A stretch of 50,115 bases of DNA from an uncultured Clostridia bacterium. Lineage in GTDB: Bacteria; Bacillota; Clostridia; Oscillospirales; Ruminococcaceae. The DNA is taken from contig CANRFR010000004.1 of the NCBI GenBank assembly GCA_947629945.1, positions 1-50,115 of the forward strand. Reading direction: 5' to 3'. Under the pieces are notes generated by a model. It saw only the letters and a program-made list of their open reading frames with translations. It had not been told where the DNA came from and searched no databases. The translations under genes and the position numbers were made by a program. Positions 11,128 through 35,940 of the stretch are shown piece by piece (within the stretch, counting starts at the first letter, position 1; every line of letters begins with the position of its first letter).

Positions 11128-11346
11128 TTAATTGACTTTCAAAATATTATCCGTCAGTATATGATAAATTTCAAATACTTTCTGGATTTCTTCATCAGAC
11201 AATTTTCTGCTTTCGGTAACTATTGGGTTAAGCAGTGACTGCATATCTTTAACGGATTTTTCAATCTCTTGAATTGCGCCACTCCATATAGTCAACATAG
11301 TACGGAGAACATCCTTTTCAGATTTATCAAGTTGGTTATCTGTCAT
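11128..11346 (-). CDS. Small helical protein of the moron unit
   Basis: This 72-aa protein (MTDNQLDKSEKDVLRTMLTI...) is predicted mostly alpha-helical and lacks signal peptide or membrane segments. I do not recognise a family. It follows the lipoprotein gene on the same transcript between a consensus promoter and a terminator, so it probably works with that protein or as a separate lysogeny factor. The ATG at 11346 is chosen over an upstream TTG; neither has a strong ribosome-binding site. Confidence 0.55.
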   Translation of the reverse strand: MTDNQLDKSEKDVLRTMLTIWSGAIQEIEKSVKDMQSLLNPIVTESRKLSDEEIQKVFEIYHILTDNILKVN

Positions 11347-11416
11347 ATACAAATCATATGTAACTTGTATATCGTAACTTGATTTAATATAATTGATACC
11401 GGCAGTGCAAGCTTCA

Positions 11417-11773
11417 CTATTGCTTTTTTAACAAATAACCCAAGTCATATTTAACAGCTTTCCCATTCTTAATATCGCCGAGAAATGTGTCGATTTCTTT
11501 TGCAATTTTATCGTAATCGCGTTTATAATCATACATCATTTCATGAATACGAATGGTATCTTTTGCAAGCCGTTCAACATCATCAAGCGATACGCCCCAC
11601 TCGTCCACCTCGCTTATTTCCGCTTCCCTTGATTCCCAATACTCGGACTGTTCTTTCTCGTGCTGTTCTCTTGCGTATGAGGCAATCTGTTTTTGACGCT
11701 GTTCCTCATTCCTACAAGCTGTGAGCGTTAAAGCCACTGTCGCACAAAGTATAACGGAAAGAAATTTCTTCAT
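11417..11773 (-). CDS. Prophage moron lipoprotein, possible superinfection exclusion factor
   Basis: The 118-aa product has a type II signal peptide, MKKFLSVILCATVALTLTAC, with Cys20 as the lipidation site. A highly charged helical region (RNEEQRQKQIASYAREQHEK...) follows. It is preceded by GGAGG and a perfect TTGACA-17-TATAAT promoter, so it can be expressed from the silent prophage. Gram-positive temperate phages often carry small surface lipoproteins that block DNA entry of related phages; here that role is inferred only from the architecture and position. It sits between tail chaperone and tape-measure genes. Confidence 0.7.
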   Translation of the reverse strand: MKKFLSVILCATVALTLTACRNEEQRQKQIASYAREQHEKEQSEYWESREAEISEVDEWGVSLDDVERLAKDTIRIHEMMYDYKRDYDKIAKEIDTFLGDIKNGKAVKYDLGYLLKKQ

Positions 11774-11800
11774 AAAGTTTTACCTCCATAGTTTTCTTCC

Positions 11801-18397: not shown

Positions 18398-19761
18398 TAC
18401 TCATCATCTCCAAACACAGCAGTCATTTCCGGCAACACTGATTTTGCTTTGTCGAGTGGTACGCCGAAATACCAAGCGTTGAAATCCTCGGGTTTGAGCA
18501 GCCCCGCTTAAACCATCTGAAAACGCCGATTAAACTCCGTTCCCGTATCCTCGAAAACGCTGTCTCCAAACTCTATGGCAGGCTCGCCGTCGGCAATGTC
18601 AAAGCCGTAAAATCGCGACAAATTCGCAGTAATTTTCGCGAGAGTTTCAAGCGCGGGTCTTAACTGCCGTTGGAGCTGCGAAACGGTATTGTATGTAGTT
18701 CTGTCCTCGGAAAGCACCTGCGTTGCCGTCACCAAGCCCTTTTGCGAATCGAAAGTAAAAGTACCGCTCGAAACGCCGATCTGAACCTCGTACAAGCGAA
18801 GTTCGGTATTTATAGCCGCCTTGTGAGCCTCCTCGCGAATTTGCGGCGCATAAGCCATTATCTGATTGTCAAGCGTAGTGTTAAAGTCACCTTCAACGGT
18901 AACAAAATAATCATCGGTGATGCCGTCTTTACCACGAAAAATATCTCCGCTGCCAAAAACTTTCGCAGACATTTTTTTGAATTCCGCGATATATTCGGAG
19001 TGCGCGTAATCAATATCGTGAAGCGTTCCGACGGAGTTTGCAAAAATAGATATCGGCAGTTCGCTGTCGAGATCAATATTATTCGCGTAGGGCGTTCTGA
19101 ATGTCGCGATCATTGGAATATCCGATGGTATTTTCCCCTCGGGTAAAAGCGTTTCCCAACGCGGTATCTCCGTCAGTTCCACGCGCTGCCTAGTACCGTA
19201 CAAATACGCAGAATTATGTACATAATGCGCTTCTCCGTCAAATCGGTGATGTTCGCGGCGCTCATAAATTTTACCTTTGTAACGTATACGCTCAAAAAAT
19301 ATTCCCTCGGTGACATGACCGTTTTCGTCAAACATCATCGGAAGAAAATCCCGCGATGTTCCCACATCGAAAAACACCTCGCCGGAGCGCGTTATGTACG
19401 GCTTTATAACCGTGTATCCACCGACAAGCGTAAGCTGCACGATCCTGTCTAAATTCGGCAAAAGGTTTTTCTGCGCGTAAACGTTCAATCGCTCATCGGC
19501 GAGTTCGTATTTTATTTCGCTCGTTACCAATTGTGCTAGATACGCTGTGGAAATATACGCGGTCGGCAAAGGCTTAAAATTTTTATGCGTGGCTTGTCTC
19601 GGCAAATTGCCGCCGAAAATATTCCACCATTCTCTAGTTTTAGCTTGCATTACAGAACTCACTGCCGTCTCGATTTGTGAAATATCCGCAATTTCATCCA
19701 CATTGTCACCGCCTTTTTTAAAACCGCTAAAACGATTTTTTAAATATTTTAAAATTTGCAT
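18397..19761 (-). pseudogene. Portal protein, interrupted by an in-frame ochre codon
   Basis: The product is the SPP1 gp6/DUF1073-like portal through which DNA enters the head. It reads YLKNRFSGFKKGGDNVDEI at the start, has KTREWWNIFGGNLPRQATHKNFKPLPTA-type sequence, and the C-terminal QIGVSSGTFTFD and TATQVLSEDRTTY motifs. The frame meets TAA at 18508-18510 after FNRRFQMV but then continues open for 36 codons (AGLLKPEDFNAWYFGVP...) to a TAA that overlaps the next gene's ATG. The extra codons match the usual portal tail, so a GAA or AAA codon has probably mutated. The shortened 417-aa protein may or may not work. Confidence 0.85.
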
Positions 19762-27113: not shown

Positions 27114-27278
27114 TTATTTGTACAGTTCTTTTTTTATTGTACGAACTTTATCCGTTTGCCGATTTTGTATAATCATTTCCTTGTCGGCGTCCTTGATCAC
27201 GAGCCAATTCTCACAATTCAGCCGAGCGGATTTCATCAACATTTTTTGTCGGCGTGTGGGATTTTTACCGTGTTTCAT
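27114..27278 (-). CDS. Small phage protein of the DUF6906 type
   Basis: This 54-aa protein starts MKHGKNPTRRQKMLMKSARL and contains NWLVIKDADKEM, the pattern of a small conserved Firmicutes phage family (DUF6906-like). Function unknown. Its ATG overlaps the TGA of the MuB-like gene as ATGA, implying coupled translation. Confidence 0.75.
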   Translation of the reverse strand: MKHGKNPTRRQKMLMKSARLNCENWLVIKDADKEMIIQNRQTDKVRTIKKELYK

Positions 27279-28219
27279 TTTCCGCGCACCGCCTTTTCCA
27301 TGCCCTTGAGATCAAGGTGCATCATCTTTGCCATTTTGACTAACCCGTTGAAATCGTATGCGCCCATATCGTAGGCGTTTCCAAAAAGCCGCACTGCACC
27401 GCGCACGCCCTCGTCGGTCTGCGAGATCTTATGTAAAAACGTCAGCTCGCTCTTTTTGCCATGAAGCACGGGGATAAGCATTTCAATGTCCGCTTTCTGC
27501 ACATCAAGCGTGCGGAGCTGCTGCCGCTGCCATGCGCGGTTGTTTACCTGTCGATACTGTTCGCGGGAACGTCCCTCAATCTTCTCGCGTATACCGTTGT
27601 TGCCGACCAACGCCACGCCCAGCGTCTGCCCACGCTCCGAAAAATAATCCGCGAACGCGCGGAGCGTTTCTATGCTTCCGTATGTGAGCAATTGTGCCTC
27701 GTCTACCGCGATCACCATACCGTCGTGGAGCTTTGCCGCTATCGTCATCCATAAATCGTCGCGGCTTTGGGAGATCGGCAATCCCATCTCCAGAGCCAGC
27801 ATTTTAAGTACCGCTTTTGTGGATTTGGTGCAAGGGTTTGTTGTTATCATTACGCTGTTCATCGGATTATCTGCGACATACTTTCGGAGCGCTTTGGTTT
27901 TGCCTATACCCGCGTCGCCTGCCACAAACGCGAACCCGCCCTTGATTTTCACGTTTTCGAGCGTCTTGTAAACGACCTCGGATATCGTTGTCGGTGCGTA
28001 TTCAATCTCCTCATACGTTTCCGCCGCTTTGGATTTGGTGTCAAAATATGCCTCTAGTTTTTTAAACTGCTTCGTCACATCGCCGTTATAGGTTTCCGAG
28101 CGGAGCTGTGAGATGATCGAGGACGATACGCCGATCTGCACTCCTGCTTTTTTCTCCGAGCCAAGCTTCGCGGCAAGCTCCTCAAACTGTTTTATCAGCT
28201 TTTCTTGTTTTTCCGTCAT
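27275..28219 (-). CDS. MuB-like AAA+ ATPase, transposition target selector
   Basis: This 314-aa protein has an N-terminal HTH-like segment (SEKKAGVQIGVSSSIISQLRSE), Walker A VAGDAGIGKTKAL and Walker B IAVDEAQLL, with further AAA+ motifs (ALVGNNGI). MuB-type proteins bind DNA with ATP, select targets and stimulate the transposase. It lies directly after the transposase gene. Length and motif spacing are normal. Confidence 0.88.
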   Translation of the reverse strand: MTEKQEKLIKQFEELAAKLGSEKKAGVQIGVSSSIISQLRSETYNGDVTKQFKKLEAYFDTKSKAAETYEEIEYAPTTISEVVYKTLENVKIKGGFAFVAGDAGIGKTKALRKYVADNPMNSVMITTNPCTKSTKAVLKMLALEMGLPISQSRDDLWMTIAAKLHDGMVIAVDEAQLLTYGSIETLRAFADYFSERGQTLGVALVGNNGIREKIEGRSREQYRQVNNRAWQRQQLRTLDVQKADIEMLIPVLHGKKSELTFLHKISQTDEGVRGAVRLFGNAYDMGAYDFNGLVKMAKMMHLDLKGMEKAVRGK

Positions 28220-28220
28220 A

Positions 28221-30209
28221 TTATTTTCCTTTCTGCAATCGAGCCGCCAAATTCATGTGCTCTAGCATTATCTTTATTTCAGTGATATTGCTAAGCTCGG
28301 GATTTTCTTCCAATCGCTCCTCTGAAAATATGGGAGTAAATGTTGTGGGCGGATCGGGCTTAAATTGTTTCTTACCTTCAAGCCCCTTCTTAACCATAAG
28401 TGCCAGAATATCTATCTGCTTATCCGGGTCGAGCGAGTCCGTTATACCTTTCGCAAACTGCTTAACAACGCACTTGTTTTCGTTAATGACGCGCTCAGCG
28501 TTCGCAATATCGTCCTTGTTGTCGGTAAGGTACGGGATCATTAGTTCATTGGCAAGTTCCCAAGTCCATAAATACTTGTCGGTTTCCATATTGTAAACAC
28601 GTACCGACAGCGGGTTTGCGGGGTCGTACCGCACATACACACTCTCTCCGATATGGAGTATCGTTTCCTTGCCGTAATACCACACCTTTTCGCCCGAGAT
28701 AGTCACAAACACACCGTTACGCCCGATTTTCTGCGGACGGCTCACGCGTTTCAGAAGCATATCCAGATTAGGTTCGTCGCATTTTCGGAACGTCGTTTCT
28801 TTTATACTTTCGTTCCATACCTCAATGCGCCGCATACCTTTGTAGCGCGTTTCCTTGCCGCCGTAAAAGTCAACGTTGTAATCACCCTCGATGAAAACGT
28901 CCAATGCTGCGGCGATCTGCAGATCTGTCGGGAGCTGTCCCGACTTCAAGATCCATTTCAGACTTTCTTTGCGCTCGACCACCGTGCCGCCGCAGAACGT
29001 TTCTATCGACCGTGAAAAGTGGTTTTTAAACGTGTAAAACGTTCGCTCTATGGGCTTCGCCTTTGCATTTCTTACGATAGCATTGTGCATTTCAATGTCC
29101 AAAAAACTGAGGATAGTCGGCGGCAGCGGGTCTTTGTTCCAGTCCTTTTTACGGCGGTGTCCTCGACCGCCGATATCCGAAACGAGGAACTCCGAACCGT
29201 TATCCACATAGATCGCGCGAGGCACTCCGAATTTTAAAATGCCTTTCCGAAGTGCTAACAGCGTGCTGTCGGAACACGGGTTTTCCGTCAAGTTCCAGCC
29301 AACCATAACGCCGCTTTTCGCGTCCGTGAACGCTGTAAGATACACACGGTTCGGCTTGCCGTTCTCGCCCGCCGTGAAGAAATCGAAAGTGTGGTTGTCC
29401 GCAATCCAAACATCGTTGGCGCGGAGATCGTCGTACATACGCTCTATGTACGGTAAACATTTATCTGCAAACATTTTATCTCCCTCTCTCATAAACATCA
29501 CAAGCGCGTAGGGGAGAGCCTCCGCCTTGCGTCGGAACGTCCGTTCCGATGGCATGTCTCCCGCCGCTTCGGGGTAGTATGTTCTCACCCACGTTTGCAG
29601 GAGAGCGTAGCAGCGGCTGATCGGCAGCTTGTTATCGTGCAGATACAAGCTGTAAAACGCATTGAGCATATAATCCGGAGCGTCCGTTTTGCCCTTGTTA
29701 TGACCGCCTTGATGATCTACAAGACCGTCGATATTACCGTCCTTATACGCTTTGTACTTCCGGTACAAAATATCGGGCGATATGCTGATCTCCGGGTAGT
29801 GCAGCTTGATCGCCGCGCAGAATAGCTCATCAACCCTGCATTTGCCCAGTTCCGCACCCTTCGCCGCACGAGCCGCCTGCCATTGCTTTATGATTTCGCA
29901 CCATAATCCGACATCGCGCCGCTGCCCGCCGTCAAGGCCTTGCAGCGTGAGTTGACGAGGATCGGGCTTCGGTACGGGCTTTGTCGGTATGGGCACGGGT
30001 GCCAGCCCCAGCTTGCCGCGCTGTTTGTTTTCCCACTTGATTTGAAGCTTTTCGGGGAGCGTGGAAAGTGGAAAAACATACTCGGTGCGGTTGTTTGCCG
30101 CGCTGTCCTTTTCGATATGTTCCAGCTTGCCGCTTTGGGCGAGTTGTTGTACATACCTAAGGCTACATCCTTTAAGCTCTGCGACCTCAGCCGTAGTCAA
30201 ATACTCCAA
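28221..30209 (-). CDS. MuA-type DDE transposase
   Basis: This 662-aa recombinase has an N-terminal MerR/winged-HTH segment (YLTTAEVAELKGCSLRYVQQL) and a linker with further DNA-binding helices. The RNase H-like core has D271 in WIADNHTF, D336 in YVDNGSEF and E388 in KPIERTF. These positions closely match MuA (D269, D336, E392). A Mu-transpos_C beta domain and a C-terminal tail that would contact the MuB-like protein follow. The start is TTG with AAAGGAGAGA upstream. It pairs and joins the phage ends for integration and replicative transposition. Confidence 0.93.
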   Translation of the reverse strand: MEYLTTAEVAELKGCSLRYVQQLAQSGKLEHIEKDSAANNRTEYVFPLSTLPEKLQIKWENKQRGKLGLAPVPIPTKPVPKPDPRQLTLQGLDGGQRRDVGLWCEIIKQWQAARAAKGAELGKCRVDELFCAAIKLHYPEISISPDILYRKYKAYKDGNIDGLVDHQGGHNKGKTDAPDYMLNAFYSLYLHDNKLPISRCYALLQTWVRTYYPEAAGDMPSERTFRRKAEALPYALVMFMREGDKMFADKCLPYIERMYDDLRANDVWIADNHTFDFFTAGENGKPNRVYLTAFTDAKSGVMVGWNLTENPCSDSTLLALRKGILKFGVPRAIYVDNGSEFLVSDIGGRGHRRKKDWNKDPLPPTILSFLDIEMHNAIVRNAKAKPIERTFYTFKNHFSRSIETFCGGTVVERKESLKWILKSGQLPTDLQIAAALDVFIEGDYNVDFYGGKETRYKGMRRIEVWNESIKETTFRKCDEPNLDMLLKRVSRPQKIGRNGVFVTISGEKVWYYGKETILHIGESVYVRYDPANPLSVRVYNMETDKYLWTWELANELMIPYLTDNKDDIANAERVINENKCVVKQFAKGITDSLDPDKQIDILALMVKKGLEGKKQFKPDPPTTFTPIFSEERLEENPELSNITEIKIMLEHMNLAARLQKGK

Positions 30210-32618: not shown

Positions 32619-33348
32619 TCAATCCTCCTTGATATCGTCCAACGAGATTTGCAAGCTGACTGTCCGCGTGCGTCTTGTTATACCGAGCCGTGTCTGTGCG
32701 TAGCGACAGACTGCCATTTGAGATATCTTTACACCGTTATCGTTCAAAAAATCGGCGATACCTTTTTGAGAATACTCGCCGCATCGTAACATTTCATCTA
32801 CCTGCGCTCTCAGTCCCTTATCCAGTTCCTCTATAACGCAAGTCTGGGATTTCTTACGATATTTTGAGAGGTCAGATTCAGACCCGGAAATTGATGTAGT
32901 GCTTGTTTGTGTGTCGATGATGGGTATGATCTGTTTCATAACCTCACTGACCACCGCCGTCGCCGTTCGCGCGATGATCTCCTCGACATTCCCGACGTAG
33001 CCGCCGTTGTGTCTAATCTGCGGTAAAACCTCATCGAAAACCCACCGCTCGAACTCCTCCGCTTTGGGCAGCTTTGAGCTGACTAATAAGGCGGTAGAGG
33101 TTACCCTCACTGATATACTTGATTTCGGTTATCTGTTGAGTGGTTACTCCGTGTTGATTAGTGGTGTAGGAGACCCCGTCGCGTTTCACGACCCCCTCTG
33201 CCTTACAATGCTTTATTATAGCATCGCGAGGGTTACTGTATCCTAAAATTTTGGCGCATTGGATAGCAGGAAAATACTCTTTCCCGTCGATCAGCATAAC
33301 CCCAAGCTCGCCAAACTCCTAGTTGCTGAAAACCTTTAATTCGTTCAT
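32619..33348 (-). pseudogene. BRO-family phage antirepressor, amber plus frameshift
   Basis: The original gene starts at the ATG 33346-33348 behind GGAGG: MNELKVFSN, then TAG (33319-33321), then EFGELGVMLIDGKEYFPA. The BRO-N domain continues ILGYSNPRDAI and YISEGNLYRL, where the frame breaks near 33080-33090 and resumes as SSKLPKAEEFERWVFDEVLPQI. The C-terminal part has a long charged linker and a wHTH-like segment (EYSQKGIADFLNDNGVKISQMAV). Two independent lesions make it a pseudogene. Intact versions relieve CI repression. Confidence 0.85.
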
Positions 33349-34088: not shown

Positions 34089-34119
34089 ATATTACGCTTG
34101 ATTTAAATCAAGTTGTCAA
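34089..34119 (-). promoter_or_regulatory. Lytic promoter with an embedded operator palindrome
   Basis: On the minus strand TTGACA (34119-34114) and TAATAT (34094-34089) are separated by 19 bp. The spacer is almost filled by the perfect 16-bp palindrome CTTGATTTAAATCAAG (34097-34112). A dimeric repressor bound there would block RNA polymerase. Another CTTGA half-site occurs at about 34128. A second inverted repeat ACCCC-TTTA-GGGGT lies at 34069-34082. Confidence 0.72.
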
Positions 34120-34174
34120 TAGACTTGCTTGAAAATAATTAAGTAATTCTATACAAATTTTTATGGAGGTTTTT

Positions 34175-34927
34175 ATGGAAAATAGCGAACTTATACTAAA
34201 TTTCATTGAAAAGCAGAACGTAAGCTGTTATAAAGTTGCCCAGTCTACTGGAATTTCAGAAAGTACATTTAGCAAATGGAAAGTAAAGCCAACCTCGAAG
34301 GTGGATTTATCCATTGTGCAAAAAATCGCTAGACATTTCAATACAACAATAGATATTATGCTTGATTATAATCAACCCCAAAGGTGCACATCTTCCTTAT
34401 CTAATGATGAATTGGAATTGTTTTGCTCATTCAACAAGCTAAGCGAAAGAGATAAAGGAAAGGTTATGGAACGAGCTGAAATCCTCGCCGAGCTAGCCGC
34501 CGAGCGAGCGGCGGCACAGGCAAAAAATCGACAAAGCCCACCGCCGTTGCCTCCGATGAGCTGCCACCGGAACCAACGACACACTCAATTGCCTACTACG
34601 GCTACCCCGCAAGTGCCGGAACAGGCCGAAAAGATTGATGTAGTCGAAACGCCCGAAGTTCTCCGCGCCGATTTTGCTATTCCAATCGAGGGTAACAGCA
34701 TGGAGCCGGACTTCTCAAGCGGCGATATTGTGCTGGTGGAATCCTGCCCGTGCGTTTCCCGCGGCGAAATTGGCATTTTCGTATTGGACGGCGACGCTTT
34801 TATTAAGGAGTTCGGCGGCGATTGCTTGATCTCCCATAACGAAACATACGATCCGATCATGCTAAAAGAATACGAAAGCGCTGTATGTATGGGACGAGTT
34901 CTCGGCAAAGCGGAGATCATAAAGTAG
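34175..34927 (+). CDS. CI-type repressor with scrambled self-cleavage segment
   Basis: This 250-aa protein has an XRE HTH (CYKVAQSTGISESTFSKWK, residues ~18-36) and a LexA/S24-like C-terminal domain with Ser175 in IEGNSMEPDF and Lys211 in GDAFIKEF. It should hold the prophage silent by binding the operator region just upstream. Start ATG 34175 is set by GGAGG at 34165-34169. Between about 34521 and 34630 the frame is locally shifted: the current frame reads SCHRNQRHTQLPTTATPQ, whereas the other reads SIAYYGYPASAGTG, the standard cleavage region with the Ala-Gly bond. Two compensating indels, in an A run and a C run, explain this. Repression may persist while RecA-stimulated self-cleavage is lost. 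Confidence 0.85.
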   Translation: MENSELILNFIEKQNVSCYKVAQSTGISESTFSKWKVKPTSKVDLSIVQKIARHFNTTIDIMLDYNQPQRCTSSLSNDELELFCSFNKLSERDKGKVMERAEILAELAAERAAAQAKNRQSPPPLPPMSCHRNQRHTQLPTTATPQVPEQAEKIDVVETPEVLRADFAIPIEGNSMEPDFSSGDIVLVESCPCVSRGEIGIFVLDGDAFIKEFGGDCLISHNETYDPIMLKEYESAVCMGRVLGKAEIIK

Positions 34928-34959
34928 CTTTTAAATAGCTCTATAGCGCGATAAAATTA

Positions 34960-34988
34960 TCCCGACAGTGTAAACCAGTCGGGATTTT
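34960..34988 (+). terminator. Terminator after the repressor gene
   Basis: TCCCGAC (34960-34966) pairs with GTCGGGA (34978-34984) across an 11-nt loop, followed by TTTT. It ends plus-strand transcription from the repressor. Confidence 0.8.
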
Positions 34989-34989
34989 C

Positions 34990-35534
34990 TGCTTAAAAAC
35001 GGAAGAGCGGCGGGCACTTCGGTGATGATAATCGGCGTGCTTGGTTAAAATGTGTTCGAAAATCGTCATTTTGATATCGCACAGGACAAAAAAATGAGCA
35101 GATTTTCTGCCGCTCAAAAATATATTTAAATAAGTGTAAAAAATTGCACAAATTTTCAACCGTTGTTAATAACTTTCTCTTACATTTTTGTGTCAAAAAA
35201 CAGGTTTCTCGATAAGGCTTTTTTTGTTTCTCGTGTTTCTTGCTAAAATATAACAAATATGTAAATAAATTACAGCATTTTTTCAAGTCTTTATTTTGTT
35301 TAAAACGCATAACACCGCCATTTGAACGAAATTTAAATGCTCTAAAACGTTTTTTAAAAAGTCCAGCTAAAATTACTATCACTCAAAAAATTGACAAAAA
35401 AACGCTTGAAAAGTTTTGACAAACCTTTCGGGCGATCCTTTTATAAAATTCCATGCTTTTGCAAGAAAATTTGGCACAGTTGAGCCAAAACCAGACGTTT
35501 TTCAGATATTTTTCGAATTTTTACGGCTTATTTT
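34990..35534. other. Non-coding end region of the prophage
   Basis: About 545 bp, AT-rich, with no supported gene. A hairpin GCAGA/TCTGC with a T tract on the minus strand lies near 35092-35117 and may stop transcription entering from the host. At 35216-35258 a segment GGC-T7-GTTT..CGTGTTT..CTTG resembles the terminal repeat copy at 35526-35560 and could be an internal transposase-binding site. TTGACAA motifs recur at 35391 and 35416. Confidence 0.5.
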
Positions 35535-35557
35535 GTTTTTTGTGTTTTACTTGTCAA
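35535..35557 (-). repeat. Right terminal inverted repeat of the prophage
   Basis: Read on the minus strand it is TTGACAAGTAAAACAC followed by an A tract, matching 222-245 with one substitution. The element ends with CA at 35555-35556. Host sequence resumes at 35557 with AAT AAC in the DUF4367 reading frame. Confidence 0.65.
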
Positions 35558-35940
35558 ATAACATTGACGATGAAAACTGTCCGCAAACTATTGAATATAA
35601 ATACGCTTTGGCTTCTGTTCCCGACGGATTTGAAATGATAGAAACGGATTCATCTACAATGGACGTTTACACGTTATACAGGAACAAGCAAACAGAGCAG
35701 GAAATTACTTTTCATCAAATTGTCAAATCATATTATAATCCGCATGTAAATACCGAACATTACCAAATGGAGGAAATAACCATAAACGGAAAAACGGGAC
35801 TGTACGTTTATTCTTGCGATGAAGGATACTTAAACTTAAGTTCAGCCTTGATATTGGATAACGAAGATTATATATTAGAAATTGTGGCAGATTTCAACAA
35901 ATCGGAGATGCTAAAATTAGCCAATTTTAACAAAGCTTGA
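35557..35940 (+). pseudogene. DUF4367-type protein gene, 5' part cut off by the prophage
   Basis: The segment encodes NNIDDENCPQTIEYKYAL, then SVPDGFEMIETD, EITFHQI, GKTGLYVYSCDEG and a final LILDNEDYILEIVADFNKSEM. This is the pattern of DUF4367 extracellular domains found on Firmicutes membrane regulators. The normal N-terminal part with its membrane helix is absent. The reading frame extends into phage DNA back to 35416, giving a chimeric start (MTNLSGDPFIKFHA) with a T-rich, artificially hydrophobic segment encoded by the phage end. This marks the insertion target. Confidence 0.75.

Follow-up and report, generated by a model that had tools for sequence, protein, structure and literature searches.

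A Mu-like prophage repressor from an uncultured Clostridia bacterium with its linker read out of frame and its cleavage motif missing

The repressor locus

The stretch of 50,115 nucleotides analysed here (the window) is the whole of contig CANRFR010000004.1 from an uncultured Clostridia bacterium of the Ruminococcaceae (assembly GCA_947629945.1, 2.75 Mb in 206 contigs). A Mu-like transposable prophage extends from the first part of the contig to ≈35,563 and lies mainly on the minus strand. Near its right end, on the plus strand and divergent from the early genes, is a CI-type repressor gene whose linker is read in a frame other than that of its relatives, and whose autocleavage site has been removed by two frame-cancelling changes, as a first-pass annotation of the sequence had proposed. 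The open reading frame (ORF) covers 34163..34927 (254 amino acids, aa) and was recognized from the ORF list, from Pfam and from a match to phrog_4 (transcriptional repressor, E 2.5e-18). The probable start is the ATG at 34175, 3' of a GGAGG, which gives a protein of 250 aa. Residue numbers are counted from the ATG at 34163 unless stated otherwise.

The N-terminal part contains a helix-turn-helix (HTH) DNA-binding domain (34199..34354, +, residues 13–64), found as HTH_26 (PF13443, E 2.4e-7, 31.3 bits against a cut-off of 22). Residues 11–70 have block means of 83–97 in the AlphaFold model, and the PDB matches to the model include HTH chains. The C-terminal part is an S24 peptidase-like domain (34664..34900, +, residues 168–246; PF00717, E 6.8e-14, 52 bits against a cut-off of 23.3), and the model as a whole has a LexA-like fold in the PDB comparison. 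The catalytic residues Ser179 and Lys215 are intact and are present in all 39 aligned relatives; these are the residues that the first-pass annotation had numbered Ser175 and Lys211 and had rightly placed in one frame with the HTH. In an assembly-wide search with PF00717 (E ≤ 0.001) this repressor was the sole S24 match of the host. Between the repressor and the early genes, upstream of the repressor, lies a perfect 16-bp palindrome, CTTGATTTAAATCAAG (34097..34112, unstranded), which is a candidate operator.

Two losses that cancel in frame

The closest relative of the repressor is found in genome G036, with 58% aa identity over residues 20–254 and 80% DNA identity over 34440–35563. Against this relative the first frame switch lies in a run of A (34522..34527, +), which has six A in the window and seven in G036. 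The A run had been named correctly in the first-pass annotation and its place is corrected here by one base from 34521–34526. The second switch, expected near 34621–34628, was indeed found at about 34624..34627 (+), but instead of a one-base change it is an absence of 23 bases relative to both G036 and G029. These 23 bases stand 3' of ACAGGC or ACGGGC in the two relatives and belong to the codons for LFLDETT (G036) and LFLDETI (G029). The gap can be placed only to within a few bases, and the alignment shows it divided into two parts. Because the losses total 24 bases (1 + 23), the frame is kept between HTH and S24. An absence of 23 bases is hardly a usual base-calling error, and the alternative first considered, in which the assembly is wrong by a single A and a single C, misfits since the second event is of this length.

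Between the two switches (34528..34630, +), ∼34 residues linking HTH and S24 are read in a frame other than the relatives'. The unused frame encodes the peptide KKSTKPTAVASDELPPEPTTHSIAYYGYPASAGTGRKD, which carries SAGTG at its end and runs into a stop at 34636–34638. Both frames of the linker were compared with the same database, the ORFs of at least 60 aa from 159 related loci. The alternative-frame peptide matched the in-frame linker of G036 over 31 aa (67.7%, E 4.4e-11) and that of G029 over 42 aa (50%, E 1.6e-6), with short, weaker matches around SAGTG in other relatives. The 34 linker residues that the repressor frame encodes, NRQSPPPLPPMSCHRNQRHTQLPTTATPQVPEQA, had no match at E ≤ 1 among these ORFs, and relatives encoding the current linker were thus not found there. 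Judged by these comparisons the linker segment belongs to the other frame, the match being beyond chance. A tblastn search did find window residues 118–155 to be 61% identical to a reading of G036 that lies outside the G036 repressor frame; this is conservation of the DNA and not a coded relative.

Loss of the cleavage motif

The 39 aligned relatives hardly vary in the cleavage motif SAGxG (S 39/39, A 39/39, G 38/39, G 39/39). It is complete in 38 of them and reads SADTG in the remaining one. The window repressor has TATPQ at this position and is without any Gly from residue 124 to 176, and a cleavable Ala-Gly bond upstream of Ser is absent from the repressor frame. SAGTG occurs in the unused frame only.

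We also surveyed the motif in 152 S24 ORFs, of which 131 were kept after removal of 21 duplicates. A loose pattern, [AVCGS]G placed 20–45 residues before GxS, was present in 125 of the 131. Three of the six ORFs without it do have SAG and were missed by the register of the pattern, while the other three comprise a partial ORF (L023), an ORF with no GxS by the pattern (L029) and one with SAD (L100). The last of these, at 2435–3160 of L100 in another metagenome-assembled genome (SVSG01000006.1), is an S24 repressor in which S-A-D-T-G replaces S-A-G-T-G, a LexA3-type change. By its sequence it is a candidate for a second natural uncleavable repressor. As its Ala-Gly has become Ala-Asp, loss of the cleavage site may be recurrent.

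Relatives of the locus

Among 43 genomes of the genus the best match to the locus was G036 (78%), and among 396 genomes of the family three others matched, with 68–78% identity over at most 156 bases. The relatives from genome_contigs are the best 80 of 311 confirmed. The DNA of 34100–35000 was without a match in the phage collection. In viral_contigs a search with the window repressor protein gave no more than 12 distant S24 loci, one with the G036 repressor protein gave 38 distant loci, and the SAGTG-type DNA pattern was not found there. No independent copy of the prophage was seen in the searched records, though those nearest to the genome of the window may be missing from the set.

A possible mosaic joint was seen at 34440–34506, where the DNA upstream is nearest to G026:C25 and the DNA downstream nearest to G036:C11. 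Since the nearest relative changes at this point, the repressor halves look as if swapped at the hinge. The upstream relative (L181, G026:C25, ∼390–990) is what remains of a repressor. In DNA its HTH part shows 77% identity to that of the window; it has a stop in the HTH and its S24 core is missing.

The Mu-like prophage and its other lesions

The prophage has genes for a MuA-like transposase, a MuB-like ATPase, a helicase loader, terminase, portal, a minor head protein, scaffold, tape measure and a GH25 lysin. The MuA-like DDE transposase (28221..30209, −; phrog_310, E 1.8e-94) shares 52% identity with a phage record from human faeces and 36% with BalMu-1. It is full length against relatives, as is the MuB-like ATPase (27275..28219, −; phrog_296, E 1.9e-46), and both align to G036 over their whole length (671/671 at 90% for MuA and 325/325 at 95% for MuB). 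TerL is likewise full length among the matches listed. In Mu-like phages the shared terminal sequence ends in CA at the junction with the host. Such a sequence, TTGTCAAATAACA (35551..35563, unstranded), is common to the window, G036, G004 and G029 and marks the right end of the prophage at 35563; the left end was not located. Directly beyond the right end is the 3' half of a host-type gene, of which an uninterrupted 238-aa homologue exists in G026:C25. A search of the assembly did not recover the remaining half.

Several other genes carry lesions, here given from the gene matches listed. Adjoining the repressor is a broken BRO-type antirepressor-like gene (32619..33348, −), a BRO-N gene interrupted by an in-frame stop close to the start and by a frameshift near 33075. 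The BRO gene near the repressor is intact in G004 (L221) and G029 (L222), where it encodes 217–218 aa. From their family names, BRO proteins probably act as antirepressors in this phage group. The portal gene (18508..19761, −) has an in-frame premature stop followed by ≈36 more conserved codons in frame, and a small lipoprotein-like gene (11131..11779, −), a single ORF of 222 aa in L220, is broken close to an A run into two ORFs that overlap. The in-frame stops are not homopolymer errors. From these sequences the prophage seems to be in partial decay and does not look like an old remnant.

Loss of RecA by the host was considered as well and rejected. PF00154 (RecA) gave no match over the cut-off in the host assembly, whereas 40 of the 43 genus genomes have one. 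The recA locus falls in a contig gap between C95 and C80, and since on either side of it the DNA runs up to the end of a contig, the missing gene reflects an assembly gap and not a loss. The LexA DNA-binding domain had no match in the host assembly either.

A probable uncleavable repressor in a decaying prophage

We favour the reading, with a probability of roughly 65%, that this is an uncleavable repressor of HTH and S24 domains in a decaying, non-inducible Mu-like prophage, a natural equivalent of an ind- mutation. A repressor resembling lambda CI and LexA has lost one base in or beside the A run and, directly behind the codons of the cleavage site, a further 23 bases. The sum, a multiple of three, keeps HTH and S24 in frame, with the stretch between them read in the wrong frame and the Ala-Gly bond and the segment behind it gone. 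If expressed and folded, the protein should dimerise through S24 and bind its operator, and RecA should fail to inactivate it because no recognisable bond is left to cut. It is plausible from the sequence that the change locked the prophage. That it locked an otherwise working one, as the first-pass reading would imply, is not supported, since the lesions in the antirepressor-like BRO gene, the portal gene and the small gene make the prophage probably defective regardless of the repressor.

The window repressor is like lambda CI and LexA in having HTH and S24 with the Ser/Lys pair and a LexA-like model fold, and unlike them in that its Ala-Gly segment was lost through out-of-frame reading and the 23-base deletion. 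The lambda cI ind- mutation (A111T, at the cleavage site) is reported to lower induction ∼1000-fold (PMC4752277), and the LexA3 change, G85D or in Listeria G91D, to make the protein uncleavable (PMC6872733). By its sequence the window protein would resemble these in being full length without a cleavable bond, but they are laboratory point mutants, whereas here the change appears natural, with ∼34 residues replaced and a net loss of 8. In mitomycin-inducible Mu-like phages such as MuM16-1, also transposable phages with a lambda-like repressor, HTH-S24 repressors are described as correlating with mitomycin inducibility (PMC8541194) and are presumed to be cleaved, while the window repressor has no such site. 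Like the grounded or cryptic prophages described in PMC6379469, the element has lesions that would block the lytic cycle while it stays in place; the grounding described there works through excision functions, and here it is the switch that is hit. Among the titles and abstract openings listed, none concerned a prophage repressor losing its cleavage site through cancelling frameshifts.

Alternative explanations

It is quite possible that the repressor is a plain pseudogene, with both losses neutral decay, the frame open by luck and no functional protein selected; this overlaps with the favoured reading, and the two are not exclusive. Other genes of the same prophage are broken too, and so, as described, is the repressor of the related remnant in G026:C25. 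In G036 as well the shifted frame has no stop over an ORF of 54 codons, and a deletion that cancels the shift is therefore easily tolerated; frame restoration through the two losses is for this reason weak evidence for selection and may be chance. The state of the gene argues the other way, as both domains are without stops and the lineage-specific silent/replacement changes in S24 are balanced as in the intact G036 lineage (10/6 in the window against 11/6 in G036), and several prophage genes, such as those for MuA, MuB and TerL, are full length. Some observations weigh against a working uncleavable repressor as such. Equal ratios are also what a dying gene would show after a change that is very recent, and with ∼34 residues out of frame and 8 missing beside S24 the protein might be unstable. 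The mismatches in the linker alignment are spread flatly over the codon positions (5/7/7 at ORF positions 1/2/3 over 96 columns, 7/5/7 in the other frame), a pattern that favours neither frame in an alignment that is ambiguous mid-linker. The AlphaFold model places weak strands at 136–141 and 155–160, about where LexA holds its cleavage-site segment, and the PDB alignments of the model begin at residue 136. These strands may be forced, since the 39 other rows of the input alignment carry the cleavage segment. Finally, the length of the A run rests on one assembly.

The last point leads to an unlikely alternative, an assembly or base-calling error in the six-A homopolymer of this single assembly in 206 contigs, with a true gene that has the 23-base deletion only. 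Such an error must fall exactly where the frame reopens, and with seven A in G036 it is natural, too, that the lineage of the window had a real slip here. Neither an error nor a real slip yields a cleavable full-length repressor; were the run an error, the repressor would be cut before S24, as HTH plus linker ending at the stop at 34636–34638, and would not be a normal cleavable one. Slippage at the A run, whether programmed or by the polymerase, giving both a full-length and a truncated HTH-linker product, seems very improbable. The heptamer A AAA AAT fits the rule for −1 slippery sites and is followed by modest structure (z −2.1, with 8 of 200 shuffles folding at least as well), but the stem begins ∼16 bases after the heptamer, beyond the usual spacers, G036 is read through in one frame and the −1 product would stop before S24. 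We hold it equally hard to credit that the prophage switched to induction by an antirepressor, which would make cleavage unnecessary. Non-cleavable repressors paired with antirepressors do exist in nature, as described for the Gifsy prophages (PMC3121763), and a BRO antirepressor-like gene adjoins the repressor in this group. Unlike in Gifsy, where intact antirepressors bring about induction, the BRO gene of the window is itself broken, although an intact antirepressor may lie elsewhere, and G004 and G029 have an intact BRO gene together with an intact SAGxG.

Implications

The case is a natural experiment and not a new mechanism. If the gene is a pseudogene only, it records ordinary prophage decay. 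Should the protein be expressed and bind DNA, frame scrambling would have given rise to a natural uncleavable repressor, and the linker of a CI-type repressor would then tolerate the replacement of ∼34 residues. Such a repressor might even have been domesticated, an idea we regard as somewhat unlikely. It would then be kept, scrambled linker included, as an immunity protein that is stable and uncleavable, even as the lytic route decays in its antirepressor and portal genes. If the reading as an uncleavable repressor is true, the locus would represent a concrete step toward non-inducible transposable prophages, one that could be counted across genomes through the loss of SAGxG.
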